A stretch of DNA of 34,643 nucleotides from Bdellovibrionota bacterium (GTDB taxonomy: Bacteria; Bdellovibrionota; Bacteriovoracia; Bacteriovoracales; Bacteriovoracaceae), in contig JAURDE010000007.1 of assembly GCA_030828105.1 (NCBI GenBank), positions 1 to 34,643 of the forward strand, written 5' to 3'. A model generated the notes under the pieces. It saw only the letters and a program-made list of their open reading frames with translations, was not told where the DNA came from and ran no database searches. This document shows positions 2,305 through 17,313 of this stretch, one piece after another. The translations under genes and the position numbers were made by a program. Each line of letters opens with the position of its first letter. Positions within the stretch are counted from its first letter, which is position 1.

Positions 2305-2493
2305 ATGAAAAAGCAAATCCTTTCATTCTTAAAAGAAGAAGACGGGCAAACTTCGACCGAGTATATTTTGTTGGTTGCTGTTGTTGCCTTAATTGTGTTC
2401 AAATTTAAGGATGTGGCAAGTGCCAAACTAAATTCGATTACTCAATCTGTATTTGGTAATGCTGAGAGCTTCGTAAATGAAATGGGTAACTAA
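2305..2493 (+). CDS. flp: Flp-type (IVb) major prepilin, 62 aa
   Basis: This is a short class-IVb prepilin. A charged leader of 14 residues ends in DG, cleavage is expected between Gly14 and Gln15, Glu19 is the conserved +5 Glu, and EY is followed by a hydrophobic helix (YILLVAVVALIVFKF) that would form the pilus core. Length and composition fit Flp pilins. The subunits are cut by the peptidase at 2786 and assembled by the TadZ-TadA/TadB motor through the CpaC secretin. A strong AGGGG ribosome-binding site precedes the ATG. It is first in the operon and followed by a hairpin, the usual arrangement for an abundant pilin. Confidence 0.92.
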   Translation: MKKQILSFLKEEDGQTSTEYILLVAVVALIVFKFKDVASAKLNSITQSVFGNAESFVNEMGN

Positions 2494-2523
2494 GCTAAAC
2501 CAAATTATTTCTGTATCTTAAAT

Positions 2524-2548
2524 AAGGGGGCATTTATTGCCCTCCCTT
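2524..2548 (+). terminator. Intercistronic hairpin after the first pilin gene (possible partial terminator)
   Basis: GGGCA (2528-2532) and TGCCC (2538-2542) pair around TTTAT, and the stem extends outward with AAGG/CCTT and a small bulge. The following bases contain only scattered T, so termination would be partial, or the hairpin may protect the pilin mRNA 3' end. Confidence 0.5.
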
Positions 2549-2582
2549 GTTCTTGCTTCTAAATAATATCAATATCTTATGT

Positions 2583-2789
2583 ATGAGGTCTAAAGAAGGT
2601 CAGGCACTTTTAGAGTACTTATTGGTTTTTGGTATGATGGCCGGTATCTCGACTGCGATGGTTAAACTCATTAGTGGGTATACAAATAGTTCAATGGCCT
2701 CACTTGGCTATGCTCTATCAAATGCCCTTTCATCTGGAGTCTGTAAGTCCTTATGCTTTTATGGGAATTTTGGGAATGGTATTCCATGA
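2583..2789 (+). CDS. Second Flp-like prepilin, 68 aa
   Basis: From the ATG at 2583 the leader is MRSKEG, cut before Gln7; Glu11 and Tyr12 give the GQ-x3-EY processing motif, followed by a hydrophobic helix (LLVFGMMAGISTAMVKL). The C-terminal part is Ser/Gly rich with two Cys that could form a disulfide. I preferred this start over an in-frame TTG at 2547 because that codon lies inside the intercistronic hairpin and would give an unusually long leader; neither has a clear ribosome-binding site. The stop overlaps the ATG of the peptidase gene (ATGA), so the two are translationally coupled. Confidence 0.75.
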   Translation: MRSKEGQALLEYLLVFGMMAGISTAMVKLISGYTNSSMASLGYALSNALSSGVCKSLCFYGNFGNGIP

Positions 2790-3292
2790 TACCTCAATCA
2801 GTTTATATATTCCTTCTAATAGAGCTTGTTGCTGTATCTTATTTGGATATTTTGCATAGGAAAGTCTCGAATCTATGGCCTATTTTAAATCTTTTGATTT
2901 TCGTTATTGTTGTGACCATAGTTCCAGATGTTTATAAATTTGAATTAAAGCAATTTTTTTATTCTATTGCCTTTCTAATAGTCGGGTTTAGTTTATTCTT
3001 ATTAAAGGTTATGGGACCAGGTGATACTAAATTTTTATTTTCATTTTTTATATTAATACCAGTCTCACAACATGAAACGGCCTTTCTAGGTTTGTTATAT
3101 TTAACAATATTAATGGGTAGTTCCTTGTTTTTATATAACTCTTATCAAAATAGAAAAAAGATTTCTGAGGCTATAAAACAAAGTGATATTAGTGCAATTA
3201 AGGAGATCTATGGAACAAAATTTCCTTACGCTCCGGTTATTTTACTTTCATGGATATGGTTTGGATGGGTAAACAGAGTAGCTCTATTTTAA
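2786..3292 (+). CDS. tadV: Type IVb prepilin peptidase (TadV/CpaA)
   Basis: This 168-residue integral membrane aspartic protease of family A24 removes the leaders of the Flp-type prepilins. Both catalytic aspartates are visible: Asp21 in SYLDILHRKV and Asp80 in MGPGDTKFL (the GxGD motif). The length matches the short TadV class, which lacks the N-terminal methylase domain of PilD. About five or six hydrophobic segments are present. The start is the ATG overlapping the previous stop; an in-frame ATG at 2753 lies deep inside the pilin gene and is less likely. Its 3' end overlaps the next gene. Confidence 0.9.
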   Translation: MIPQSVYIFLLIELVAVSYLDILHRKVSNLWPILNLLIFVIVVTIVPDVYKFELKQFFYSIAFLIVGFSLFLLKVMGPGDTKFLFSFFILIPVSQHETAFLGLLYLTILMGSSLFLYNSYQNRKKISEAIKQSDISAIKEIYGTKFPYAPVILLSWIWFGWVNRVALF

Positions 3293-3576
3293 ATGAAAAG
3301 GGACAGTCAGCAGTAGAATATATTCTTTTACTTGCTGTAGTTATGTCTTTGGTAATGGTTGTCTTTAGAAATAAGACATTTCAATATTATATGGGACCTG
3401 ATTCACCTTACTTTGAAACTCTCAGAAAATATATTGAACATTCTTATCGTTATGGATCACCAATTGTAACAGGGTTAACACCCCCAGATAGTAACAGTTA
3501 TAGTGATCAGCATACTAGTTATCAATCGGAGACAGGGCAATCGAGGTTCTTTACTCCAGTGGAGCCAACACAATGA
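3265..3576 (+). CDS. Prepilin-like protein with polar tail, 103 aa
   Basis: The N-terminal leader ends in EKG, then Gln14-x3-Glu-Tyr and a hydrophobic helix (YILLLAVVMSLVMVVF), so it should be a peptidase substrate like the pilins. After the helix comes about 65 residues rich in Tyr, Ser and Pro with no known domain. It is longer than a Flp pilin and may be a TadE/F-class minor pilin. In-frame ATGs at 3250 and 3256 are alternatives; 3265 gives a leader like its paralogues. It overlaps the peptidase gene upstream and the next gene by ATGA. Confidence 0.7.
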   Translation: MGKQSSSILNEKGQSAVEYILLLAVVMSLVMVVFRNKTFQYYMGPDSPYFETLRKYIEHSYRYGSPIVTGLTPPDSNSYSDQHTSYQSETGQSRFFTPVEPTQ

Positions 3577-4106
3577 TAAAGAAAATAAAAAAAAACCAAG
3601 ACGGTCAATCGACAACAGAGTTCTTGTCTTCATTTATCTTTGCCATAGTTATTGTTTTGGTATTTTTGAAAATATCTTTTGTTATTGCTGATGGTTTTTT
3701 AGTCCACTATGCCACTTATATGGCCTCTAGGACATATCTCGTAGTTGATATTAATGCTAACTCGCCGGGGGGCTCTGATGCAGCTTCATTTCAAAGAAGT
3801 GCTCAGACTTTTTTATCATTTTTGGTACCGCGATTAGTCCCGAATTGGACGGCAAACTTACAAGTCAATAGTCCACGAAATGTAGATAATAAAGTGTTTG
3901 TGGGCAATTGGATTGAGTTTAGAAATCAGTTTGGAGTTTCAGATATAGTTGGTGGTAGAAAGCCTGTATATTTACGATCAGAATCATTCTTAGGAAAAGA
4001 ACCTACAGTAGGAGAGTGTATTGAAAGAGTTTGTGCAGCTATGAATACAGTCTCTGGAGGGGCCGATTGTTCTAAGTATACTACTTTGTTTGATAATGGA
4101 TGTTGA
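3573..4106 (+). CDS. TadE/TadG-like minor pseudopilin, 177 aa
   Basis: A basic leader ends in DG11, then Gln-x3-Glu-Phe and a hydrophobic helix, followed by an exported domain of about 135 residues with four or five Cys (in GECIERVCAAM, GADCSKY and the last residue). TadE-like proteins prime or cap Flp pili after processing by the same peptidase. The position between two other pilin-like genes, with an ATGA overlap upstream and a TGATG overlap downstream, supports this. The C-terminal domain is not one I recognise. Confidence 0.75.
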   Translation: MIKKIKKNQDGQSTTEFLSSFIFAIVIVLVFLKISFVIADGFLVHYATYMASRTYLVVDINANSPGGSDAASFQRSAQTFLSFLVPRLVPNWTANLQVNSPRNVDNKVFVGNWIEFRNQFGVSDIVGGRKPVYLRSESFLGKEPTVGECIERVCAAMNTVSGGADCSKYTTLFDNGC

Positions 4107-4618
4107 TGAAAAAGAGAAAAATAGATTTAAGTGATGAGTCTGGACAGGCAATTTTTGAGTTTATTGTCTTTATACCATTTTACTTGGTGTTTCTTGTTGT
4201 GTTTTTAACTGTTGCTGGTGCAGTAAATGGTTCAATAAATCAGCAAAAATCTACAAGAGGCTATTTCTTTTATTCAGTAAAAAATGATTCTACTGTTCCA
4301 TTCAAAAAAGACCTTGAGGAGTTAGGAAAAAATGGGATTTCCATGGTTGGGAGCTATTCATTTGGTTGGCAAAGAAGCGCAAGAGGGGCAACACCAATAG
4401 CTCCATGCTATAAAATCCCAAGTATTTTGGGCGATTCAGTTGAAGAAGAGTGTGAGGATCCAATGAATAGTGGAACAAGAGAGGCCAAATATGTAAGAGT
4501 TTTTACTACCTTTGGAGTATGCTCAAGTTCTTATACATTAAACCAAGCTGATGGAAGTTTCTTATGGGATTCCTTGGCGGGAAATTCAAGAATTTCAAGT
4601 AGTTGTACACTAAGATAA
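4106..4618 (+). CDS. TadE-like minor pseudopilin, 170 aa
   Basis: The leader ends in ESG13, followed by Gln-x3-Glu-Phe and a hydrophobic segment (VFIPFYLVFLVVFLTVAG). The remaining 130 residues are exported, with Cys in three places, suggesting disulfides. The IPFYLVFL stretch resembles TadE family members. Its ATG overlaps the previous stop by one base; an in-frame ATG at 4100 would add two residues. It is the last of five tandem prepilin-like genes and is followed by an 81-base gap with a possible internal promoter. Confidence 0.72.
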   Translation: MKKRKIDLSDESGQAIFEFIVFIPFYLVFLVVFLTVAGAVNGSINQQKSTRGYFFYSVKNDSTVPFKKDLEELGKNGISMVGSYSFGWQRSARGATPIAPCYKIPSILGDSVEEECEDPMNSGTREAKYVRVFTTFGVCSSSYTLNQADGSFLWDSLAGNSRISSSCTLR

Positions 4619-4699: not shown

Positions 4700-5506
4700 A
4701 TGAACACTCGGGCCTTTACGTTGGCATTAGTTATAGCAGGTGTCGCCATGTTTATGGTTTATACTTATATTGAAGATCAGAAAAGTGGAATCATAAAAAG
4801 GTTTGGTACAGAAAGTTCGGTAGTAGTTGCCAAAGTCGACATTAAAGAGCTTGAGCTGATTGATGACTCTAAAGTAATGGTTAAATCAGTTCCACAAAGT
4901 TTTTTATCTCCAGGTCATTTTAAATCAGTTCGTGAGCTTGATAATACAGTTGCCACAGTCCCTATATTAAAAGGGGAACAAATAACAAAACCTAGAGTGA
5001 CTTATCCTGGTGCAAGTACAGGTCTAGCAAGACAAGTTAGTGTGGGGAAAAGGGCCATAGCAGTTTCAGTTAATGAAAAAATTGCCGTTTCAAAACTACT
5101 TAAGCCAGGAGATAGGGTGGATGTCTTGGCAGCTATTGATTATGCTGCTGGCGATAAGGCCAGACAAAAGATTAAAACCGTTCTTCAAGACGTACTTGTG
5201 TTATCAACAGGTCTAAGCATGACTAATTCTATTCCCTTAATTGGTATTAAAACGCCGAGAGAAATTAAGGCAATGAATTTAAGTACATATAGCCAGTACA
5301 ATACAGTAACTTTGGAGCTAGATCCTTTTGAAGCACAAAAGCTTGCTTTCATTATGACGTTTACTGGTAGAGACTTAAATTTAGTACTAAGAAATAATAA
5401 TGATAAAAAGTTAGTTAGAATTCAAGGTACTGGATTTTACGATATCCTGGGAAGTGATGCTGCTGCGGCAAAACAATATTTTCAAGAACAGAATAAGAAG
5501 AATTAA
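4700..5506 (+). CDS. cpaB: Flp pilus assembly protein CpaB/RcpC
   Basis: CpaB proteins are periplasmic and inner-membrane anchored, and are thought to link the Flp secretin to the cell wall and support its assembly. One N-terminal membrane segment (about residues 5-23) is followed by an SAF domain (about 38-100, with VVVAKVDIKELELID and VPILKGEQITKP) and the CpaB core (RAIAVSV, LLKPGDRVDVLA). The 268-residue length is normal. A strong AAGGGGA ribosome-binding site precedes the ATG, and the secretin gene follows after 3 bases. Confidence 0.92.
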   Translation: MNTRAFTLALVIAGVAMFMVYTYIEDQKSGIIKRFGTESSVVVAKVDIKELELIDDSKVMVKSVPQSFLSPGHFKSVRELDNTVATVPILKGEQITKPRVTYPGASTGLARQVSVGKRAIAVSVNEKIAVSKLLKPGDRVDVLAAIDYAAGDKARQKIKTVLQDVLVLSTGLSMTNSIPLIGIKTPREIKAMNLSTYSQYNTVTLELDPFEAQKLAFIMTFTGRDLNLVLRNNNDKKLVRIQGTGFYDILGSDAAAAKQYFQEQNKKN

Positions 5507-5509
5507 AAT

Positions 5510-6994
5510 ATGAAGATCATTCTTATTTTTATATTATTGTTTTACTGGTCATTGGGATTCACACAAAGTGATGAAAAAGTCGATGAAAGACAAGTGGATG
5601 TGATTTTAGGGATTGATAAAATAATTCGCTTTGATTACGTAGCCTCACCAAAAGTGCAGGTTGGTAACCCCTCAATAGTTGCATTTGAGATATTTCCTAG
5701 GAAAAAAGAAGTTACTTTTAAAGGCTTAAAGGTAGGTAAAACTTCTATCACACTTAGAAATCCAGTTGGGGATATAAGAGGTCGGTATTTGGTAAATGTG
5801 ACTGCAAATGATCAATCTGAACTCATACAAAAATTAAAAGAATTTTTAGGGCATATAGAAGGGCTTGAAATTGGTGTTAAGGGTGGAACTGTTTACTTAG
5901 GTGGTAAACTTGTGGTTCCCTCAGATATGGGCCTTATAAATTTAGTTCTTAAAAAATTTCCAGATGTAATGGAGATGGTTGAGTTATCTCCTATGGCACA
6001 AGTGTTAGTTGGTCAAAAAATGCAGAATGAAATACAAAGAGCAGGTCTACGTGATGTAACAGTAAGAGTCGTTAATAAGGCCTATTGGTTAGAAGGTGTT
6101 GTAGGATCGGCCGGTCAAAAAACTAAAGCTTTTAGTATAGCAAAGGCATATTTACCTGAATCACTTGCCTCAATTGCAGAAAGGGAACAAGCAGTACAGA
6201 AAGCTGGTCAAAAGTCTATAATTCAAAATTTTATAAATGTTAATGCCAAAAAGACACCACCAGCAATCCCAAAATTGATAAGGATTGCAGCTCACTTTGT
6301 AGAATTATCGAAAGATTATAATAGAGTTTTTGGGTTTAAGTGGAGTCCTCTCATGTCTACAACAGGAGCTTCTATACAATTTGGTAAACAAGCTTCTGAT
6401 GGATTATCTACTCAGTCGCAAGGTACTTTAGCAGGAACAATTTCTAACTTGCTTCCCAAATTAGCGTCAGCTAAGAGTGCAGGTCAAGCAAGAGTTATAC
6501 AATCTGGAATGGTTATTGTTAAAGATGGTACTCAAGCAAAGCTTGCTAAAAAGTCATCAAAGCCTTTTGCGATTGGAACCGGTGAATTTGTAAAAGCAGA
6601 AAAAGCAGAGTCAGGGTTTGATCTAGGTGTCACACCGAAAGTTCTTAGTCAGGAAAAGATCGAGCTTGCTATGGGAATAAGTGTTTCGGCAAGTATTGGA
6701 GATCCACCAGAAGTTCAATCTAATACCATCTCAACTTCAATGGTTGTAAAGTCAAAGGATAGCGCTGTAGTAGGTGGGGTAGTAATTAATCGAGACTCTA
6801 CAGAGTATGACAGAAACCCTCCCTTTGGGAATAATCCAAATCAAGGGGGAACTCCACTATTTTCTTTTTTGAGATCGAAGTCTATTACGAAAGGGAAAAG
6901 TCAATTTGTAATTTTTGTAACACCTGAAATTATAGCTAATGCAGCTTCGGGAACCGATGATATTTTGAAAAAATTTAAAAGAGGAAGAAATTAA
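5510..6994 (+). CDS. cpaC: Flp pilus secretin CpaC/RcpA
   Basis: This is the outer-membrane secretin channel through which the Flp pilus passes. A signal peptide (to about residue 19) is followed by the pilus-type N-terminal domain (DVILGIDKIIRFDYV, VGNPSIVAFEI, KVGKTSITLRN) and a BON-like region. The secretin domain covers about 255-480, including VIQSGMVIVKDGTQAKL, LGVTPKVLSQEKIELAM and FVIFVTPEII near the C-terminus. The 494-residue length is normal. It sits between CpaB and the motor ATPase gene, one base from the next ATG. Confidence 0.93.
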   Translation: MKIILIFILLFYWSLGFTQSDEKVDERQVDVILGIDKIIRFDYVASPKVQVGNPSIVAFEIFPRKKEVTFKGLKVGKTSITLRNPVGDIRGRYLVNVTANDQSELIQKLKEFLGHIEGLEIGVKGGTVYLGGKLVVPSDMGLINLVLKKFPDVMEMVELSPMAQVLVGQKMQNEIQRAGLRDVTVRVVNKAYWLEGVVGSAGQKTKAFSIAKAYLPESLASIAEREQAVQKAGQKSIIQNFINVNAKKTPPAIPKLIRIAAHFVELSKDYNRVFGFKWSPLMSTTGASIQFGKQASDGLSTQSQGTLAGTISNLLPKLASAKSAGQARVIQSGMVIVKDGTQAKLAKKSSKPFAIGTGEFVKAEKAESGFDLGVTPKVLSQEKIELAMGISVSASIGDPPEVQSNTISTSMVVKSKDSAVVGGVVINRDSTEYDRNPPFGNNPNQGGTPLFSFLRSKSITKGKSQFVIFVTPEIIANAASGTDDILKKFKRGRN

Positions 6995-6995
6995 G

Positions 6996-9098
6996 ATGGC
7001 CAAAGGTTATATTGCCTGTTTTTTAGGTGGTAAAGGTGGTGTTGGTAAATCAATGTTAGCTGCTAATTTTGCTTTTGCTTTTGCTGCAGAATCAAGAAGT
7101 AAAACACTTTTACTAGATTTCGACTCTAAAGCTGGAGGAGATCAAAATATCATTACTGGTATGACCTCTAAAAAAAATATAAAAGAATTGGGTGATTTTC
7201 CTGGTGCTATTGATGTTAGAGCTCTACAACAGTTTGTAATCTCTCATCCCGCAGGCGTCTCTTATATAGGTATGCCTAATGACCCAATGGCAGCAGCAGC
7301 GGTAAATGCAGATGGACTTGGTAAGACATTAAAGGCCGTAACAGAAATGTTTCCATTGATCGTTATAGATTGTGGAAGTGAATTAAACGATCTTTCCTTA
7401 AAGGCACTGGAGTTTGCAACGGCCATCTTTTTAGTCTGTTCTGCAGATGTTTTAGCATTAAATCAATCAAAGAGGATTTATTCGGAACTAGTAACAATGC
7501 TCTTTCCGAAGGATATGATCCAGGTTTTAGTAAATCAAGCAGTTCAAGGTCATCCCGTATCACCAGATGTTGTAGGAAAAACAATTGGAAAACCAGTTTT
7601 TTCAACCATTCTAAAAGATGACCAAACTTGTGTTCAGGCACTAAATGCAAAGAAGCCAATTGTTACGGTGGCAAAAAATAGTCCTTTTGCAAAAGGTGTT
7701 TTTGAAACTGTAAGAAAAGTTATTCAGAAAAATGTTTTTCAATCTTTAGCAAAACTTCAGAAATCTCCCGATGCAGGAAAACAAAAGAAAGGTTCAGTAG
7801 GAGATGAAAAGAAGGCCAAAAATGCCTGGATAGATCTAAAAATTAGAATACATAAATCACTCGTTGAAGAAATGGACCTTTCTAAAGATGATGATAAAGA
7901 TCCTAAGGCAAAAATAATTCTTAAGGAACAAACAAAAAAGTTAGTCGTTGATCTTTTAGGCAAAGAAGATACTAGCGGTGTTATTAATACTCGTGATGAT
8001 ATGAACCAAATGGTTAAAGAGATTCTCGATGAAGCACTTGGATTAGGCCCTTTAGAAGATATGCTCAGTAACAAAAGTATTTCTGAGATTATGGTTGTCG
8101 GTCCTGAAAAGATTTTTTACGAAGAAGGTGGAAAGATAAAAAAATCTGAAGTTATCTTTAGCTCAGATAGACAAGTTCTTAATGTTATAGAAAGAATTGT
8201 AGCACCCATCGGACGAAGAATTGACGAAAAAACACCCTATGTGGATGCGAGACTTTCAGATGGTTCAAGAGTCCATGCTATTATACCTCCCTGCGCACTT
8301 AATGGAGGTACAATTACAATAAGAAAATTTCCTGAAAATAGACTCACCTATAAAGACCTCGTTAAATTTGGATCAGTTACTCAAAATATGGCCGATTTCC
8401 TACGTATATCAGTAGAGGCACATAGAAATATTGTTGTTAGTGGAGGTACAGGCTCTGGAAAGACTTCATTAATAAATATCCTAGGAAGTTTCATTCAGGC
8501 AAATGAAAGGGTTATTACCTGTGAAGACTCAGCAGAACTTGATTTTCCTCAGGACCACGTTGTTAGTCTCGAGACAAAGCCGGCATCTCTTGAGGGAGAA
8601 GGTGGTGTTGATATTAGGTGTCTAGTTAAGCAAACACTAAGGATGAGGCCTGATAGAATTGTTATTGGAGAGTGCCGGGGTGGTGAAACATTAGATATGT
8701 TACAGGCCATGGGTACAGGTCATGATGGCTCAATGACAACAGTCCACTCCAATAACCCTAGAGAGTGTATAGGGCGTCTTACAGTTTTAGTTCAATATGC
8801 AGGAGCAGGACTTGAGCCTAAGGCCATAAAAGAAATGATCTCTAAGGCCGTTCACTTAATAATTCAACAAACAAGATTAGATGACGGATCTCGAAAGCTA
8901 ATTTTTATTACAGAAATTGGTGGTATGCAAGGGGACGTGGTCACTCTTCAGGATATATTTGCCTTTAAACAAGAAGGTATAGATAAGAATGGAAAAATAA
9001 TAGGAAAATTTCAGGCAAGCGGATTTATACCTAATTTCATAGAGAAGCTTGAAGCTAAAGGGTACAACATACCTCGGGGTTTATTTAGAAACGAATAA
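6996..9098 (+). CDS. Fused TadZ (MinD-like) - TadA (CpaF) ATPase
   Basis: Two tad proteins are fused in one 700-residue chain. Residues 1 to about 250 are a ParA/MinD-type ATPase with the deviant Walker A GGKGGVGKS (11-19) and LLLDFD, equivalent to TadZ/CpaE, which sets pilus position; the receiver-like N-terminal domain of CpaE is missing. A charged linker follows (about 255-310). The rest is a full secretion ATPase TadA/CpaF: Walker A GGTGSGKT (about 483-490), Asp box ITCEDSAELDF, Walker B RIVIGECRGGE and the His box TTVHSNNP. TadA powers pilus extension from the cytoplasmic face. The frame is continuous, with a good GAGGAAG site only before the first ATG. TadB follows 2 bases later. Confidence 0.93.
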   Translation: MAKGYIACFLGGKGGVGKSMLAANFAFAFAAESRSKTLLLDFDSKAGGDQNIITGMTSKKNIKELGDFPGAIDVRALQQFVISHPAGVSYIGMPNDPMAAAAVNADGLGKTLKAVTEMFPLIVIDCGSELNDLSLKALEFATAIFLVCSADVLALNQSKRIYSELVTMLFPKDMIQVLVNQAVQGHPVSPDVVGKTIGKPVFSTILKDDQTCVQALNAKKPIVTVAKNSPFAKGVFETVRKVIQKNVFQSLAKLQKSPDAGKQKKGSVGDEKKAKNAWIDLKIRIHKSLVEEMDLSKDDDKDPKAKIILKEQTKKLVVDLLGKEDTSGVINTRDDMNQMVKEILDEALGLGPLEDMLSNKSISEIMVVGPEKIFYEEGGKIKKSEVIFSSDRQVLNVIERIVAPIGRRIDEKTPYVDARLSDGSRVHAIIPPCALNGGTITIRKFPENRLTYKDLVKFGSVTQNMADFLRISVEAHRNIVVSGGTGSGKTSLINILGSFIQANERVITCEDSAELDFPQDHVVSLETKPASLEGEGGVDIRCLVKQTLRMRPDRIVIGECRGGETLDMLQAMGTGHDGSMTTVHSNNPRECIGRLTVLVQYAGAGLEPKAIKEMISKAVHLIIQQTRLDDGSRKLIFITEIGGMQGDVVTLQDIFAFKQEGIDKNGKIIGKFQASGFIPNFIEKLEAKGYNIPRGLFRNE

Positions 9099-9100
9099 TT

Positions 9101-9994
9101 ATGGATGCTATAGTAAGACTATTAGGACAAAATGGAATTGTAATAATTATCGGCTTGATGGTTTTTATACCCGTTTTTAGAAAGGCGAATAAATTATTTA
9201 CTTGGATTGAAGACCAAACGTTCGGAACGCGAAACTTTATAATAGAAAAACTTAATCTTCTTTTTATCGATATTAAGGAAGAAAAAGTAACATACGGATT
9301 AATAGGTTTATCTTTTGGAGGAGGATCTTTAGTCATTATTTCAATTGGCTTTTTGACAAGCAACTGGATAGTTGCTTTAGTTATCGGTCTTATATTCTTC
9401 TTTATAGCTTTTAAGATACCTAAGCCTATTATTAATCAAATGATTAAGAAAAGGCATCAGATGTATGCAAGTCAAATGGTAGATGCATTAACACTACTCT
9501 CAAATGGGATAAGAGCAGGGTTATCTGTTCCCCAATCATTAGGAATGGTTGTCGATGAAATGCCAGGGCCAGTTTCACAAGAATTTGGGCTGATGTTACA
9601 ACAAAATAAAATTGGTGTTCCACTAGAGGAATGCTTCGAAAATTTAGCTGTAAGAGTTCCTCTTGAAGATAATGATATGTTTGTTTCGGGGGTGAATATT
9701 CTAAGAGAAACGGGTGGAAACTTGGCTGAAACGTTCGATACTATTGTTGATGTTATACGGGAAAGAGTACGCTTAAAACAAAAAGTAGAGCAATTTGTTG
9801 CCCAAGGTATGTTTCAGGGGATTGTTATTGCGGGGATGCCATTTGGTATAGGAGCGATATACTTTTTCACTGACCCGGATTCTATGATAAAACTATTTAC
9901 TCATCCCCTTGGAATTGCAATGTGTGTGGTAGCTTTTCTCTTTGATGCAGTCGGGTTTTTCGTCATTTTAAAGATAGTTGACATTAAAACTTAG
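9101..9994 (+). CDS. tadB: TadB, type II secretion F-domain platform protein
   Basis: This inner-membrane platform protein works with TadA in Flp pilus assembly. A transmembrane helix near the start, two more near residues 66-105, a cytoplasmic F domain (QMVDALTLLSNGIRAGLSVPQSL ... ETGGNLAETFDTI, split here) and two C-terminal membrane helices follow TadB topology. The 297-residue length is normal. Most tad loci have a paralogous tadC next to tadB; here the next gene is the YD-repeat gene and no TadC is found in the window. Confidence 0.9.
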   Translation: MDAIVRLLGQNGIVIIIGLMVFIPVFRKANKLFTWIEDQTFGTRNFIIEKLNLLFIDIKEEKVTYGLIGLSFGGGSLVIISIGFLTSNWIVALVIGLIFFFIAFKIPKPIINQMIKKRHQMYASQMVDALTLLSNGIRAGLSVPQSLGMVVDEMPGPVSQEFGLMLQQNKIGVPLEECFENLAVRVPLEDNDMFVSGVNILRETGGNLAETFDTIVDVIRERVRLKQKVEQFVAQGMFQGIVIAGMPFGIGAIYFFTDPDSMIKLFTHPLGIAMCVVAFLFDAVGFFVILKIVDIKT

Positions 9995-10008
9995 GACTTT
10001 TTCCTAAG
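9990..10008 (+). other. Perfect 7-bp inverted repeat overlapping the tadB stop
   Basis: CTTAGGA and TCCTAAG flank CTTTT. There is no T run on either strand, so it is not a standard terminator. It overlaps the weak -35 part of the FliA-like promoter that follows. Confidence 0.4.
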
Positions 10009-10032
10009 GCCTATTCTGGGCGCTTCCGATAA
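10005..10032 (+). promoter_or_regulatory. Candidate FliA-type promoter before the YD-repeat gene
   Basis: TCCGATAA (10025-10032) matches the FliA -10 consensus at 7 of 8 bases. Upstream at 12 bases lies TAAGGCCT, 5 of 8 with the -35. The ATG of the next gene is 40 bases downstream. Confidence 0.35.
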
Positions 10033-10072
10033 ATAAACTAGATAGAATTACAAACTAAATAAGGAATGTTTA

Positions 10073-11692
10073 ATGAAGCTTCTCTTAATTATTATAGGAC
10101 TTTACTCAATTTCAAGTTATGGTGGAGTGAATCTCAAAAATGGTAACTTCTATATAAATTATACTGACGTTATTGTTTCAGGAAGTGGACCTGAACTTTC
10201 AGTTGTCAGAACCTATAATTCAAAATCTACACACAAGGGTTGGTTTGGCTTCGGTTGGGGAAGCGATTTTGAAACAAAACTTGAGGTTTCACCAGATGGT
10301 TCTGTGACAATATTTGAAAATGGCTCTGGTGCTAGAACGAGGTTTACTCCTAAGGGCTCGAATGATCCATCTCAAGGAGTTGATAAAATAATTTCTAAAA
10401 TGAAAAGTAGGGCCAATATAAGTGATGTAGTCGCTGAAAATTTAAGAGAAAGATTATTAGGGGACTCTGAGTTAAGACTTGCCTACGCTAGAAAATTTAA
10501 GGTAGTTGCTGATATTAAAACAGGAGATGTCCTATATAGTTCTCTAAGAGGAAGTCAAAAATTAATGAAAACTTCTAGAGGATATAAAAGATTCTATGAA
10601 AGTGGGAAGTTTGAAGAATTTGATTTAGAGGGTTATTTAAAATTGGTTCAACAAAAAGATGGTCATAAAGTATTTTTGAACTATAAGGACAATCGCTTGA
10701 CTTCTATAAAAGATACAAAGTCAAAGCAACTTTTCTTTGAATGGTATGAATCTGGTAGAGTTAAGAGTATTTCAACGGGTTCAAAAACTAAGTCTTCTTA
10801 TGAGTATGATAGTGATAATCTTATTTCATCTACTGATATGGCGGGTAATACTTATAAATTTGAATATGATTCCTATCATAATATGAAAAAAGTAAAATAC
10901 GCTGATGGTAAGGAAATGACAATTGCTTATGAGCCACAGACACAATTCGTAACCAATATTGTTGATAAAGCTGGTTTAGAAACAAAGTACGAATACGGTA
11001 AGAACTCTAAAAATCCTGAGTTACATTATTGGACTATAGTCAAAAAGAAAACAAAAAGTGGAAAAGAGTTTTCAAGCAAGTATGAATATGAAATGAAGAA
11101 AAGACCTGATGGTTCTCAATACACTTATAGAATTTTAACAGATATTAGTGGATTTGTTACTGAAACTACTTACTCTGAATGTTGTGGGCTTCCTCTAAAG
11201 ATTGTGAAAGGAGAGGATGTTACAACTTTTGAATATAACAAAAGAGGATTATTGACCAAAAGAAAGTCTTCTGATGGAGACTTTGTAGAATTAGATTATC
11301 ATCCTACTTTAAATAAAGTGACTAAGGTAGTTAACCCTAATGGATGGACTAAATTTAACTACGATAAGAAAGGTAATTTATATAAGGCCATGAACAACGT
11401 GGGTAAAGCTGTTTTATTAAAATATGATAGAAATGGCCGGATTACGGATATGGTTGATTATGATAAAAAGAAAGACGTGAGAAGAACGTTGGCTTTTAAA
11501 TATAATGCTCTTGGAAAGCCAACTGAAATAGACCTAAAAAAAGTAGGAAAGATAAAAGTTGATTATGACGGCTTTGGCGAGATTAAAAATGTTTCTTCTA
11601 ATTCTGGAAAACAAATGGCGGTTCAAGTAACTCAGGCGTTTCAGTCCTTACTGGAAATTGTTAGACCTGCTGGAGTTAATTTAAGCTTATAG
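10073..11692 (+). CDS. Secreted YD-repeat (RHS-like) protein, Bd0109-like by position
   Basis: The 539-residue protein begins with a short signal peptide (cleavage near residue 16, SSYGG) and the N-terminal RHS opening (VVRTYNSKS, then GWFGFGWGSDFE). From about residue 200 to 500 it has YD repeats of the type xxYDxxGxxxxxxxxxG, such as FEYDSYHNMKKVKYADGKE and FNYDKKGNLYKAMNNVGK. It lacks the Rhs core boundary motif and any toxin tip, so it is not a polymorphic toxin. In Bdellovibrio, Bd0109 is a periplasmic YD-repeat protein next to the Flp genes that binds the small secreted Bd0108 and is tied to pilus control; this gene has the same neighbours. Equivalence is inferred from layout and domain, not from alignment. 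Confidence 0.85.
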   Translation: MKLLLIIIGLYSISSYGGVNLKNGNFYINYTDVIVSGSGPELSVVRTYNSKSTHKGWFGFGWGSDFETKLEVSPDGSVTIFENGSGARTRFTPKGSNDPSQGVDKIISKMKSRANISDVVAENLRERLLGDSELRLAYARKFKVVADIKTGDVLYSSLRGSQKLMKTSRGYKRFYESGKFEEFDLEGYLKLVQQKDGHKVFLNYKDNRLTSIKDTKSKQLFFEWYESGRVKSISTGSKTKSSYEYDSDNLISSTDMAGNTYKFEYDSYHNMKKVKYADGKEMTIAYEPQTQFVTNIVDKAGLETKYEYGKNSKNPELHYWTIVKKKTKSGKEFSSKYEYEMKKRPDGSQYTYRILTDISGFVTETTYSECCGLPLKIVKGEDVTTFEYNKRGLLTKRKSSDGDFVELDYHPTLNKVTKVVNPNGWTKFNYDKKGNLYKAMNNVGKAVLLKYDRNGRITDMVDYDKKKDVRRTLAFKYNALGKPTEIDLKKVGKIKVDYDGFGEIKNVSSNSGKQMAVQVTQAFQSLLEIVRPAGVNLSL

Positions 11693-11702
11693 GAGCTAAT
11701 AG

Positions 11703-11927
11703 ATGAAAAAAAATATGATGTTGTTAATAAGTATTTTTCTATTTGCGAATTTAGCATTTGCAATTGAAGACTCCGAAGCCGATCGTTTGGGAGAAAATTT
11801 GGAAGATTGTCCTAAGGGTTGTGAGTGTATCATTGATACTGCACGAGGAAAGAGTGATAAGTCATCGATAATAAGGGTGGATGATACTCCTATGGAAAAA
11901 GAAGATAGCGAAACAATTAGCAAGTAG
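11703..11927 (+). CDS. Small secreted acidic protein, 74 aa (member A of a three-gene family; Bd0108-like by position)
   Basis: A signal peptide (MKKNMMLLIS... cut after FAFA-like AFA, about residue 20) is followed by an acidic mature chain of about 54 residues. It has LGEN, three Cys (CPKGCEC), the pattern C-x3-I-x3-R and the terminal tail TISK. The same pattern recurs in the proteins at 15986 and 16258. It lies 10 bases after the YD-repeat gene with an AGGAG site, so they are co-transcribed. This is the position of Bd0108 in the hit locus, also a small secreted protein next to the YD-repeat protein. No known domain is recognised, and it differs from its paralogues by an extra Cys-rich insertion. 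Confidence 0.8.
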   Translation: MKKNMMLLISIFLFANLAFAIEDSEADRLGENLEDCPKGCECIIDTARGKSDKSSIIRVDDTPMEKEDSETISK

Positions 11928-13367: not shown

Positions 13368-13806
13368 TTTTTCGTCTAACTTAGAGCATGGGTAGATTTT
13401 AAAAGAGAGTATTTTTGAGGCTTCCAAGTTTGATTGGGTTCAACTCTGCGCATTAATTACCTTACCTTTTATTCAAGAGGTTTCTATCAAAATTTTTTTA
13501 AAGTTGTAGATAAGGTCATTGATTAGCTTGTTATAAGGCTCCGCGTCTAAAGAATAAGGTCCAAAAGAAGACTCTTTTTATAGGGCCAATATATAGCGTT
13601 TTCAGCGGGTTAACTATCAACAACTCTCTTTGTCAGAGTTCTGTTAAGAATGACCTATTTGTTAAATAGAAACAAAATATTCCAATTATCACCTAACTTG
13701 AATAAGGCCTTTATCAGAAATAGATTGCATTTATAGAAAAAATATAGTTTTTTTCACGAAACAAAAGTTTGAATAGCTAAACCATAATTCTTGTAAGGAG
13801 GAATTG
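13368..13806 (+). other. 439-base non-coding region before the secreted-module operon
   Basis: No reading frame with a ribosome-binding site is seen on the plus strand. It holds three small hairpins: GTTAG/CTAAC at the dehydrogenase stop (13363-13380), AAAAGA/TCTTTT (13563-13578, followed by T) and AACTCT/AGAGTT (13622-13640). The promoter of the next operon must lie here but no clear -35/-10 pair could be fixed; TTGCAT at 13725 lacks a partner at normal spacing. A long leader or small RNA is possible. Confidence 0.5.
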
Positions 13807-14148
13807 ATGAAAGTTTTTAAGAAGGCCCTTATGGTTTCTCTAATTGCTAGTGCAGTAAGTGGAAATGTAATGGCAGGTGATGAGGACATAACTCTTTTAG
13901 GTCTAGATAATAATGGTAACGAAATTGAGATGCCAGTAAAGTCTAAAAGATTTAAAAAAAGAGTAAATAAAATCCTAAAGGCTTATTTAGGTGAGGCCAT
14001 CCCAGCTCTAGATAGAGCAATTAGAAGTGATTCAAAACTTAAACTACGAGAAGTTGATCTTGGTGTAAGTGTGAAAATGGGATTTGAAGTTCCAGAAGTT
14101 TTTGATGCATCTGTTGAGCCTGGCATTTATGTTAAGCTTGGTAATTAA
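13807..14148 (+). CDS. Small secreted protein with C-terminal copy of the recurring module, 113 aa
   Basis: The protein has a typical signal peptide ending in VMAG (residues 20-24), a mature acidic segment, a basic amphipathic helix (about 45-70) and a C-terminal stretch of alternating polar and hydrophobic residues (about 78-112, LREVDLGVSVKMGFEV to GIYVKLG). That last part resembles the module repeated in the next two genes. The ATG at 13807 follows a strong AAGGAGG site; an in-frame TTG one codon earlier is ignored. It is the first gene of a three-gene operon (20-base gap to the next). Codon use is biased to CTT, GTT, GTA and GGT. No known family is recognised. Confidence 0.8.
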   Translation: MKVFKKALMVSLIASAVSGNVMAGDEDITLLGLDNNGNEIEMPVKSKRFKKRVNKILKAYLGEAIPALDRAIRSDSKLKLREVDLGVSVKMGFEVPEVFDASVEPGIYVKLGN

Positions 14149-14168
14149 TTATTAGGGAGATACAAGAA

Positions 14169-15461
14169 ATGAAACTAAAAAATATTTTAGCAATTGGTAC
14201 ACTTAATTTATCACTTATTGGAAGTGTTTTTGCTGGTACTCTGAACCCAGCTTGGCATTTACTTCCAGAAGACAAAGGTTACACAGCTTCTATTGAAAAA
14301 GCAGCTAGCAGTGATAATCTTGAATCTATTGAATCCTTTCTAGATATTTATACTGGAACTCACCATGATATTCTTGAGGAGCAAGCATCTTACTCAACTG
14401 ATAAAGGTGATGGTTGGAAAGTTAAAAGAGTAAGAACTTGGTTAGGCCTTGGTGCTTCTGGAAAAATTGGTGTTGTTGGTTTTGGCGGTGGAAAAACTGT
14501 TAAAGTTGATTGGGAGCCAAAGAAAACTGCAAAGTCTAATGAAATTGTTGAAGAGGATACTGCAGACGTAGTACTTAATGAGTATACTGAGAAGTCTGAT
14601 CTTGATGCTCAAATTGAGCCAATCATCAAAAATCTTGTTAAGTCTGGAAAAGTAAAAAATGAAGCTGAGCTTAGAAAAAATCTTAAAGCTAAAGCTGTTG
14701 AATTCCATGAGTATACAAAGGGTATGTACTCTGTTGGTGACTCTGTATGGTATGCTAAAAAACTTAGACTTGACCTTACAATCAGTGCTTCTGGTAAAAT
14801 TAAGACTTTCGTAGTTAAAGTTGGTGGAGATGTAAGAGTAAGACTTGAATGGGTAAGACTTGCTTCAAAATCAAAAGATAAAGCTAGAGCTGATAAGAAA
14901 AGTATTATCGCAAGGTCTACTTCAAAACTTATCACTAAGCTTTCTCAAGATCTAACTGCTGCGACTTCTTCAGTTTCTGGTAAGTACGGGTTTGACCTAA
15001 GTGAAGTAAAGCTTTGTCTTGGAATGACTGCAGAAGGTAAAGTAGTAGTTGCTTCTGTTAAAGGTGGAATCAATCCATGTGTATACTTTGGTAGACAAAG
15101 AATCACTAAGTCTGACAAAGCTTCTTATGCAATTGGAAATGATGATACTTTCCCAATGGCAAAAGAAAATAGTGAAGGTCTGTTCGAGTACGCATCAAAG
15201 AACAAAATTGCTTATGAAAAAGGTTCTAAAGAGTCTATCTTCAAAGTTGATAGAAAGAAATTTAGAAGAGGGATCCAAAAAGCTTATAAGTTTGGTATGA
15301 AGTTCGCTAAAAAAGTAACTAAAAAACGCTATGCTAAGAAGAAGTGGGGAATTAAGGTAGTTAAGCCATCTTATTCTCTTTCAGTTTCTGGAAGTGTGGG
15401 AGTTGCTAAGCTTTCTGGTAAAGCAGAGCTTGAATTAGTATTTAAAAACCTAGCGATGTAA
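14169..15461 (+). CDS. Secreted protein with four related beta-type modules, 430 aa
   Basis: A signal peptide (cut after SVFA, residue 22) precedes a lysine-rich mature protein with no domain I know. Four stretches of about 35 residues resemble each other: 83-117, 194-230, 273-309 and 393-426. Their shared pattern is an aromatic/basic entry (GWKVKRVR, VWYAKKLR), then alternating strands around ASGKI or AEGKV, a Gly-Gly turn and a strand ending in an aromatic (VDWE, LEWV, VYFG, LVFK). This fits repeated amphipathic hairpins, as in surface or outer-membrane beta structures. Helical or charged linkers separate them. All roughly 25 Ile codons are ATT or ATC, none ATA, unlike the neighbouring genes, which suggests very high expression. 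Confidence 0.82.
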   Translation: MKLKNILAIGTLNLSLIGSVFAGTLNPAWHLLPEDKGYTASIEKAASSDNLESIESFLDIYTGTHHDILEEQASYSTDKGDGWKVKRVRTWLGLGASGKIGVVGFGGGKTVKVDWEPKKTAKSNEIVEEDTADVVLNEYTEKSDLDAQIEPIIKNLVKSGKVKNEAELRKNLKAKAVEFHEYTKGMYSVGDSVWYAKKLRLDLTISASGKIKTFVVKVGGDVRVRLEWVRLASKSKDKARADKKSIIARSTSKLITKLSQDLTAATSSVSGKYGFDLSEVKLCLGMTAEGKVVVASVKGGINPCVYFGRQRITKSDKASYAIGNDDTFPMAKENSEGLFEYASKNKIAYEKGSKESIFKVDRKKFRRGIQKAYKFGMKFAKKVTKKRYAKKKWGIKVVKPSYSLSVSGSVGVAKLSGKAELELVFKNLAM

Positions 15462-15489
15462 AAAACATTAGAATTAAAAGGATATAAAA

Positions 15490-15789
15490 ATGAAATATTT
15501 AATGACGTTGGCCCTTGCCCTTTCTTTTTCAACCGGTTTTGCTGCTGATAAGCCAAGCCTAGGAGAGTGGATTACAAATGAAGTTGATTCTCAGGTTGAA
15601 GAATTCAATAAAATGGAAGAAGCCGAAGCGACTATGGTTCAAGGTTGGTACTTTAATAAGGTTAGAGTAAGACTTAAAGCAACTGTAGGTCTTGATCTTC
15701 TTGCTAAATTTGAAGTTAAGCCATATATCGAGCTTCATTTCAAAAGAGGGAATCCAGAAGGATATAGTAGCTACAAGCCACAAATGTAA
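15490..15789 (+). CDS. Small secreted protein with one copy of the recurring module, 99 aa
   Basis: A signal peptide ends in GFAA (about residue 19). An acidic helix (22-47) is followed by one module at 52-86, starting GWYFNKVRVR and ending IELHFKR, very like modules 1 and 2 of the 430-residue protein upstream (GWKVKRVR, VWYAKKLR). The C-terminus is short and polar. An AAAAGGA site precedes the ATG, 28 bases after the previous stop, and a strong terminator follows, so this is the last gene of the operon. No known family is recognised; a partner or assembly subunit of the larger protein is a reasonable guess. Confidence 0.8.
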   Translation: MKYLMTLALALSFSTGFAADKPSLGEWITNEVDSQVEEFNKMEEAEATMVQGWYFNKVRVRLKATVGLDLLAKFEVKPYIELHFKRGNPEGYSSYKPQM

Positions 15790-15845: not shown

Positions 15846-15985
15846 AAATAAAATTTATTTAATACCGACTAAATTTTAGGCAATGATTCAAAGATCAACA
15901 TTAACTCATAAAAAAAATCAGTAGGTTAGACCATCATTTTTGGCATATTAAATGCATATTTAAGAGTAAGTATAAGGGAGGAATT

Positions 15986-16183
15986 ATGAAACTAATACTT
16001 AGCTTAATTGTCTTAATGTCAGTATCATCTGGGTTTACTCAAGAAATGGGGGAGTCTCAAGCAGCAAGCTGTGATCAATCCATTCACCTTGGTAGATTTC
16101 AAACAGAAAAAGTTAGAGATATCTCTTCTGAGGAAGTTCAGGATGAAGTCGTTGTTGAAGAAGCTAAAACTATTTCTAAATAA
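15986..16183 (+). CDS. Small secreted acidic protein, 65 aa (family member B)
   Basis: The signal peptide is cut near residue 18 (SSGFT/Q). The mature part of about 47 residues holds MGES, a single Cys in C-DQSIHLGR, an acidic stretch (EEVQDEVVVEE) and the tail KTISK at the very end. Spacing and motifs align without gaps to the core of the proteins at 11703 and 16258. A strong GGGAGG site precedes the ATG. It stands 140 bases after a terminator, so it has its own promoter, which could not be fixed. The single Cys could allow a disulfide-linked dimer or a mixed disulfide with its neighbour. Confidence 0.78.
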   Translation: MKLILSLIVLMSVSSGFTQEMGESQAASCDQSIHLGRFQTEKVRDISSEEVQDEVVVEEAKTISK

Positions 16184-16227: not shown

Positions 16228-16257
16228 GGAGGTATAATTCTACCTTTGAGGTCCTTT

Positions 16258-16458
16258 ATGAAGTGGATATTAATTCTTTTATTTGTAGCTTTTCCGGCTT
16301 TCTCCGCAGAGCTTGGAGAGGATGTGAGTAATATTGAATGCACAAAGAGCATTCATAGACCTCGCCCCACTATATCTCAAGTTAAAACGAATATTGAGTT
16401 TTCAGAAGATTTTCCTGATGAGGAGGCCACTCAGGAAGCATCTACTATCCAGAAATAA
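16258..16458 (+). CDS. Small secreted acidic protein, 66 aa (family member C)
   Basis: The ATG at 16258 has a GAGGT site 6 bases upstream and gives a classic signal peptide ending in AFSA; an in-frame TTG at 16246 is the alternative. The mature chain has LGED, a single Cys in C-TKSIHRPR, an acidic part (EDFPDEEATQE) and the end STIQK. It is most like member B (C-x2-SIH-x2-R in both). A small inverted repeat AGGTA/TACCT lies just before the start. Its stop abuts the stop of the convergent minus gene. Function is unknown. Confidence 0.78.
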   Translation: MKWILILLFVAFPAFSAELGEDVSNIECTKSIHRPRPTISQVKTNIEFSEDFPDEEATQEASTIQK

Positions 16459-16809
16459 TTAGTCTTTACGAGGCTCTTCAAGGATTTTTTTGAGTATCTC
16501 TTTTTCTTCAGCAGTATATTCTTCCATTGGTTCCATTTCAGAGTTCAGATAAGTTTGAGGGGCCGCATGGCTATTTGATACAGAATCTTCTATTTGTGCA
16601 GGCTCAACATTAAGTAGGTACTTTTTCCCAAGCTTTTTTCCGATTCGAATATTTTCAAGAGCATCCTTTTTAAATGACTTAATTATCTTTTTAGCTTTTG
16701 GAACCGCAAAATCGTAAATCAGGTCAAATGTCCTTTGTTTTTCTATTGGAATACAAAGAATTGCGAAACTTAATATAAAATAGCTTAAGAATTTAAGCAG
16801 AAAGCTCAT
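16459..16809 (-). CDS. Hypothetical protein with N-terminal membrane anchor or signal, 116 aa
   Basis: The first 20 residues are hydrophobic (FLLKFLSYFILSFAILCI), followed by a basic middle (KAKKIIKSFKK, GKKLGKKYL) and an acidic C-terminal helix (EYTAEEKEILKKILEE). No family is recognised. Its start overlaps the 3' end of the response-regulator gene by 17 bases, so the two are made from one message and probably coupled. Confidence 0.7.
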   Translation of the reverse strand: MSFLLKFLSYFILSFAILCIPIEKQRTFDLIYDFAVPKAKKIIKSFKKDALENIRIGKKLGKKYLLNVEPAQIEDSVSNSHAAPQTYLNSEMEPMEEYTAEEKEILKKILEEPRKD

Positions 16810-17209
16810 CTACGTTCTCCAGCTCGTGCTTAACTTTCATTACAGTGTCATAGAGTTCTTGTTTGCTAAATGGCTTTTGAAGAAAGTCACAAGCACCATT
16901 AGTAATGGCCTCAATAATGATATTTTCTGTTTTAAGTGAAGACATCAAAATAATAAAATGATCTTTATTTTCTTCATTTATTATTTTTGCTAATTCAAAC
17001 CCTGAAGTCTCAGGCATCACGATATCTATAATATAGCAATTTCCAGAGGTCGTTCTTAGAAGTTTGGCAGCAGTCTCCGCAGAATTTGCCTCACCGACTA
17101 CCGCTATTCCTTGTTCTTCCAGCGCGTCAACAATAGACTTTCTTGTAAACTCACTATCGTCAACGACGACGACTTGGAGGGACTTTTTGTGTTCTTCATC
17201 TTTTGTCAT
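16793..17209 (-). CDS. Single-domain (CheY-like) response regulator, 138 aa
   Basis: The whole protein is one receiver domain: acidic pair Asp17-Asp18 in VVVVDDSE, phosphorylation site Asp62 in IDIVMPE, Ser90-Ser91 as the switch hydroxyl and Lys112 in QKPF. There is no output domain, so it must act by protein contact, as CheY or Spo0F do. The start at 17209 places the domain at the N-terminus as usual and has AAGGA about 11 bases upstream; an in-frame ATG at 17257 would add 16 residues without a ribosome-binding site. No kinase gene is nearby; the only partner in the operon is the small membrane protein downstream. Confidence 0.88.
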   Translation of the reverse strand: MTKDEEHKKSLQVVVVDDSEFTRKSIVDALEEQGIAVVGEANSAETAAKLLRTTSGNCYIIDIVMPETSGFELAKIINEENKDHFIILMSSLKTENIIIEAITNGACDFLQKPFSKQELYDTVMKVKHELENVDELSA

Positions 17210-17313
17210 TTTATGCACTATCCTTTGCCATCTTTGGTAGCATTGAGTTATTTCCATTTTAACGGAAAAAAAGAATTACCAAAAGACTTATAAAAGAGGA
17301 TTAAATTAGTCAG

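Follow-up and report, generated by a model that had tools for sequence, protein, structure and literature searches.

The window analyzed here, a 34,643-nt stretch of DNA from a Bdellovibrionota bacterium of the family Bacteriovoracaceae (contig JAURDE010000007.1), carries a complete tad cluster on the plus strand whose end is formed by tadB, a YD/Rhs-repeat gene and a gene for a small protein with a predicted export signal. An earlier note on this DNA had placed these three genes here and compared them with the hit locus of Bdellovibrio bacteriovorus; both the open reading frames (ORFs) and the Pfam domains agree with that placement. The features of the locus are:

2305..4618, + strand: flp, a second flp-like gene, a cpaA-like gene and three TadE-like genes (ORFs; order as in most loci of the family)
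4700-5506, + strand: cpaB (TIGR03177, 151.7 bits; synteny)
5510-6994, + strand: cpaC/rcpA-like secretin gene (synteny)
6996..9098, + strand: tadZ-tadA fusion, 700 aa (Pfam T2SSE, 194 bits; N-terminal ParA-type domain, CbiA/AAA_31)
9101-9994, + strand: tadB, 297 aa (Pfam T2SSF, 61.6 bits)
10073-11692, + strand: YD/Rhs-repeat protein, 539 aa (RHS_repeat 73.9 bits, DUF6531 55.4 bits)
11703-11927, + strand: type-1 small exported protein, 74 aa, with CPKGCECI (ORF, signal-peptide-like start, Shine-Dalgarno)
15866..15882, + strand: degenerate palindrome of activator type, CGACTAAATTTTAGGCA, scoring 9/12 and lying 75 bp ahead of the sigma-54-type site
15941..15956, + strand: predicted sigma-54-type promoter TGGCATATTAAATGCA, 9/12 with GG-N10-GC kept, 45 bp before the type-2 start
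15986-16183, + strand: type-2 small exported protein, 65 aa with one cysteine, GESQAASCDQSIHLGR (ORF, type-2 profile)
16258-16458, + strand: second type-2 small exported protein, 66 aa from ATG (ORF, type-2 profile)
16459..17257, - strand: convergent neighbors closing the locus, a 116-aa protein and a CheY-like receiver (ORFs; conserved position)

An alternative TTG start at 16246 would extend the second type-2 ORF to 70 aa. The CheY-like receiver gene was found downstream in 72 of the 96 loci with more than 4 kb of downstream sequence, HD100 included. Between the type-1 and type-2 genes (13804-15789) lie exported-looking ORFs of 114, 430 and 99 aa with a common recurring beta-type motif, and the 430-aa ORF has a Pfam Pepco match slightly below the cut-off. 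A 6S RNA (Rfam RF00013, 62 bits, gathering threshold 46.4) was detected at 1899-2079 on the minus strand, just upstream of the tad cluster. The tadZ-tadA fusion apparently also occurs in distant families of the phylum.

Orthology and Synteny of the YD Gene

When Bd0109 was used as a query against the genome containing the window (2.78 Mb), the sole match was the window YD protein (E = 1.2e-83, 33% along its entire length); the top-scoring Rhs protein of solved structure, by comparison, reached 49 bits over ~110 residues. Judged by these matches, the window YD protein is the reciprocal ortholog of Bd0109, as the earlier note had anticipated. It also matches a YD profile (A1 model) at E = 1.3e-222, and a profile search recovered a YD member at E ≤ 1e-30 in 343 of 368 phylum genomes and in 227 of the 234 good ones. 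Among 20 genomes without a YD match that were examined for tad, three, all from one genus, lacked both, and in several others tadZA lies near a contig start. The genome used here as B. bacteriovorus HD100 appears to be that strain, as indicated by exact matches to the bd0108/bd0109 primers and agreement with the published coordinates.

The gene order of HD100, cpaB-cpaC-tadZA-tadB-YD-bd0108, is collinear with the window. Of 157 distinct loci, at least 145 have tadB immediately before YD under a strict rule, although the loci are related to one another and these counts do not equal independent events; five further loci also show tadB, and the remainder comprise six paralogous YD genes without tadB and one locus cut by a contig edge. 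In the window, tadA-tadB-YD stand beside Tad (type IVb) pilus genes, and directly after YD, 11 nt past its stop, begins the small gene whose export is predicted from sequence. The order tadZA-tadB-YD followed by a predicted small exported protein recurs in HD100 and in most of the phylum, and the agreement of gene order with HD100 and many relatives bears out this part of the earlier note. The hit-locus comparison therefore holds at the two points where it might have failed, since the YD protein is closer to Bd0109 than to unrelated Rhs proteins and synteny is present in other predators.

The arrangement itself is not new, because the bd0109-bd0113 region has been described as syntenous in predators (Avidan et al., PMC5430801) and the Bd0109 homolog of B. 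marinus SJ as having two small signal-peptide neighbors (Prehna et al., PMC4267844). The latter locus, BMS_0182-0184 of B. (Halobacteriovorax) marinus SJ, belongs to the same family as the window and resembles it in its YD gene and two small neighbors, but that study described it only as lacking Bd0108 homology and did not go on to a second class, a promoter type or a survey of the phylum. What is new is a further family of small exported proteins that have exactly one cysteine and are preceded by a sigma-54-type site and often by a palindrome. In a B. exovorus-like genome (G041, locus L064), the tad-linked YD gene is also accompanied by two small exported ORFs, of 124 and 67 aa, whereas an earlier study considered a distant pair, A11Q_2207/2208, to be the stronger hit-locus equivalent (PMC4267844).

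Predicted Structure of the YD Protein

The structural model of the window YD protein (pLDDT 87, pTM 0.74) consists of a DUF6531-type domain with a helical insert, continuous YD beta-hairpins and a terminal helix. Residues 17-444 superimpose on the T6SS Rhs core 8qjb_A (Z 25.1, 3.6 Å over 350 residues), and YD is predicted to form an open Rhs half-shell. This predicted fold is shared with T6SS Rhs effector cores and teneurin YD shells; however, YD is approximately half their size, has no toxin domain, ends in a strongly conserved C-terminal helix (VTQAFQSLLxIVxPAGVNL) and is Tad-linked, and the DPxG core motif, sought in both the window YD protein and Bd0109, was absent. A half-shell around a disordered ligand would suit the measured interaction of Bd0108 with Bd0109 (PMC4267844), and we infer that the YD and small proteins of the window may interact likewise.

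The Type-1 Small Protein

In 127 of 151 non-redundant loci, the first 150 nt after the YD stop contain the start of a small ORF with a signal peptide, compared with 16 of 642 ends of other long ORFs that served as controls in the same loci (signal peptides being called by a simple self-made rule, not a dedicated predictor), and its presence after YD is thus not due to chance. The 74-aa protein of the window fits the type-1 profile at 14.6 bits, a score reached by none of 300 shuffled sequences.

The earlier note had paired this protein with Bd0108, but no sequence homology between the two was detected. The NCBIfam model NF053838 (hit_Bd0108), which gives 102 bits with Bd0108 itself, had no match to the 74-aa protein at E ≤ 0.1, and homology between the mature small proteins of Bacteriovoracaceae and Bdellovibrionaceae was detected in none of the tests made, with a profile-profile probability of ~1%. 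With profile searches, hhalign and NCBIfam all empty, homology to Bd0108 was rejected, and the claim is therefore reduced to positional equivalence: the 74-aa protein matches Bd0108 in position, predicted export signal, cysteines and composition. Bd0108 has itself been described as Bdellovibrio-specific (PMC3818213). Type-1 proteins always contain cysteine, usually several, in Bacteriovoracaceae, and a CxxC motif is present in 28 of 34 members in Bdellovibrionaceae (1.1 expected after shuffling); in the small proteins of all groups ~80% of the residues are disorder-promoting. The window type-1 gene has no sigma-54-type site of its own and is presumably read through from the tad operon. At locus L110, the bd0108 equivalent (+15 to +212 after YD) looks frameshifted before the CxxC motif, and the type-2 gene and its sigma-54-type site are intact.

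Type-2 Small Proteins and Their Promoter-Type Sites

The earlier note had also suggested that the small protein belongs to a family with extra copies nearby. Small exported ORFs are indeed present at 15986-16183 and 16258-16458, but they have one cysteine each and represent a distinct type with its own promoter-type site. A type-2 profile built without the window gave 18.8 bits with the first and 6.4 bits with the second (0/300 and 2/300 shuffles as high, respectively), and no further copies were found in the 2.78-Mb genome. The first combines a predicted export signal, a single cysteine and a sigma-54-type site at 9/12; the second comes after it without a site of its own. The mature type-2 protein has exactly one cysteine in 139 of 140 cases (Bacteriovoracaceae, 102 of 103; Bdellovibrionaceae, 37 of 37). 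In each of these two families, the type-1 and type-2 proteins are weakly similar to one another (hhalign E 0.001-0.005, probability 8-18%), which would fit old paralogs.

Sigma-54-type sites (GG-N10-GC with TGGCA(C/T) and TGC(A/T)) were sought in the 2.5 kb downstream of YD and scored by their agreement with 12 positions of the consensus, GG and GC being obligatory. At a score of at least 10/12, there were 149 sites in 358 kb downstream of YD, whereas the opposite strand had 2, the 571 kb upstream had 11 and simulated sequence had 2-11; at 11/12 or better, the numbers were 51 downstream and 0 on the other strand and upstream. Most of the 149 (117) stand 41-86 bp before a small exported ORF, with site-to-ATG distances of 41-92 bp for the sigma-54-type sites, and the small ORF concerned is rarely the first after YD (14/141 preceded by a site) but commonly the second (94/117) or third (33/38). 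The palindrome TGTCTnA-N3-TnAGACA was found at 10/12 or better upstream of 80 of 146 promoters versus ~1% of controls, mostly at a distance of ~60-90 bp in Bacteriovoracaceae and 24 bp in Bdellovibrio.

The gene rpoN was detected in 56 of 59 genomes, including that of the window (E = 2.6e-65), and the predicted window site conforms to the pattern. This site and its palindrome are both weak, each scoring 9/12 and falling near the bottom of the range observed, and three plus-strand sites of that strength occur in the window; the case for a sigma-54-type promoter here rests on position and on relatives. Four sites in the window's genome match TGGCAC-N6-TGCW exactly, none of them clearly ahead of a type-2-like gene.

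A Published Small RNA of HD100

A small non-coding RNA at 96455-96716 of HD100 has been reported to be raised in bd0108 mutants (Capeness et al., PMC3818213). By coordinates, this 261-bp RNA contains the type-2 ORF of HD100 (96483-96683, 66 aa), which has a signal peptide and a strong Shine-Dalgarno sequence, and both published RT-PCR primers fall inside the ORF. The ORF is intact in 21 of 22 Bdellovibrio loci, with none reported by the ORF search in the other (L119). Divergence at the HD100 type-2 gene is largely synonymous (pS 0.281 and pN 0.006 vs. G157; pS 0.352 and pN 0.019 vs. a second relative), and in a second close group pS was 0.30-0.32 and pN 0. As its gene evolves as a protein-coding sequence (pS 0.28, pN 0.006), the published RNA is probably the mRNA of the type-2 gene.

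The synonymous rate also bears on whether the RNA itself is constrained. In the two HD100 pairs (with G157 and G160), type-2 pS was no lower than that of bd0109 and bd0108 (0.28-0.35 vs. 0.18-0.27), such that no extra RNA-level constraint is visible there. In four other close pairs (L092/L094/L113 and L093/L095), however, type-2 pS was 0.06-0.32, below the 0.24-0.56 of YD, and a partial role at the RNA level is therefore possible. No NCBIfam model matched the HD100 type-2 protein and no Rfam family matched the locus. The literature searched held no text that calls the HD100 sRNA coding and none that links it to sigma-54.

A Proposed Two-Tier Switch and Its Alternatives

The HD100 hit locus (PMC3818213, PMC4267844) resembles the window in its tadA-tadB-YD-small exported gene order and orthologous YD; it also has a further small exported gene preceded by a sigma-54-type site, and a convergent receiver gene downstream. 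It differs in that its small proteins have no detectable homology to those of the window, and in that the HD100 small genes are in direct succession, whereas the type-2 pair of the window lies 4 kb further on, past an aldehyde dehydrogenase gene and three ORFs. We consider it reasonably likely that the window holds the Bacteriovoracaceae copy of the hit locus, a phylum-wide Tad pilus module with two tiers of ligands and sigma-54 feedback. The broader proposal, in which the two-tier Tad switch is ancestral to the phylum and the HD100 sRNA is a type-2 mRNA induced on loss of the first ligand, we rate as only a little better than even.

Under this model, the tad operon would produce the pilus, the YD shell and the type-1 ligand together. 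The YD protein would be exported and form its open half-shell, and the disordered, cysteine-bearing type-1 protein would bind it in the periplasm and set pilus extrusion, a step known from HD100 only, where Bd0108 binds Bd0109 and bd0108 mutations alter piliation and release host-independent growth (PMC3818213, PMC4267844). Loss of type 1 would raise the transcript over the type-2 gene, likewise known from HD100 only. A disturbed type-1/YD complex or pilus may then cause an activator, reading the state of the envelope or pilus and acting through the palindrome, to turn on the type-2 gene from its sigma-54-type promoter, and the type-2 product could take the place of type 1 on YD or counteract it there, as an alternative or feedback ligand. 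Sigma-54 use, the activator, type-2 binding to YD and the feedback are parts of the model that we infer.

It is conceivable, although unlikely, that the small proteins instead serve the Tad pilus or its secretin as a structural or surface substance, disordered and linked through cysteines (a cap, lubricant or matrix), with YD as an export chaperone or shell. Tad-linked YD genes adjoin pilus genes throughout, the one fixed cysteine of type 2 suits a covalent link and the small proteins diverge as fast as surface proteins, all in keeping with such a role; yet mutations of bd0108 in HD100 shift the mode of growth and the number of pili in either direction (PMC3818213), an effect more in keeping with a switch than with a structural part, and the type-2 genes have promoter-type sites of their own and are not merely the tail of the tad operon. 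That the HD100 transcript is a true regulatory RNA, with the ORF incidental or of minor second function, seems to us distinctly improbable. Its publication as an sRNA tied to bd0108 genotype (PMC3818213) speaks for this, but the near-universal intactness of the ORF, strong codon-level purifying selection, synonymous sites that change as fast as those of bd0109/bd0108 in the HD100 pairs and the lack of an Rfam family speak against it, as do the positional equivalents in distant families, likewise ORFs with signal peptides that follow a promoter-type site of this kind.

We give hardly any credence to the idea that YD is an Rhs polymorphic toxin and the next small gene its immunity protein, even though the fold is that of T6SS Rhs cores and a small gene follows, as in toxin-immunity pairs. 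Such an identity was rejected given the missing DPxG, a length about half that of Rhs cores and a strongly conserved C-terminus in place of a variable domain; in addition, the small protein carries an export signal, and YD is near-universal in the phylum, unlike polymorphic toxins.

If the locus is indeed phylum-wide and encodes a second exported protein under separate control, the sRNA hypothesis of the growth switch would give way to a feedback loop acting through a protein, for which a sigma factor and an activator site are candidates. The locus also suggests that Tad pili of predatory bacteria share a general accessory module, and it shows that very short disordered secreted proteins can be traced by position and promoter where sequence alignment fails. 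The Tad tip complexes of Myxococcus Kil (PMC12075869) are similar in that accessory proteins set the output of a bacterial predator's Tad pilus, but those proteins are minor pilins (TadE/F/G-like) and not YD shells with disordered ligands.

A genome-wide palindrome regulon in HD100 and its relatives was also considered and rejected, with only a few of the exact sites standing ahead of a sigma-54-type site. In HD100, most exact palindromes outside the locus have no such site downstream, and the palindrome may therefore not be specific. Exact palindromes located elsewhere at L251 and L265 do stand ahead of a sigma-54-type site and a gene for a predicted exported protein (of 326 and 102 aa, respectively), and these may be further members of a regulon.
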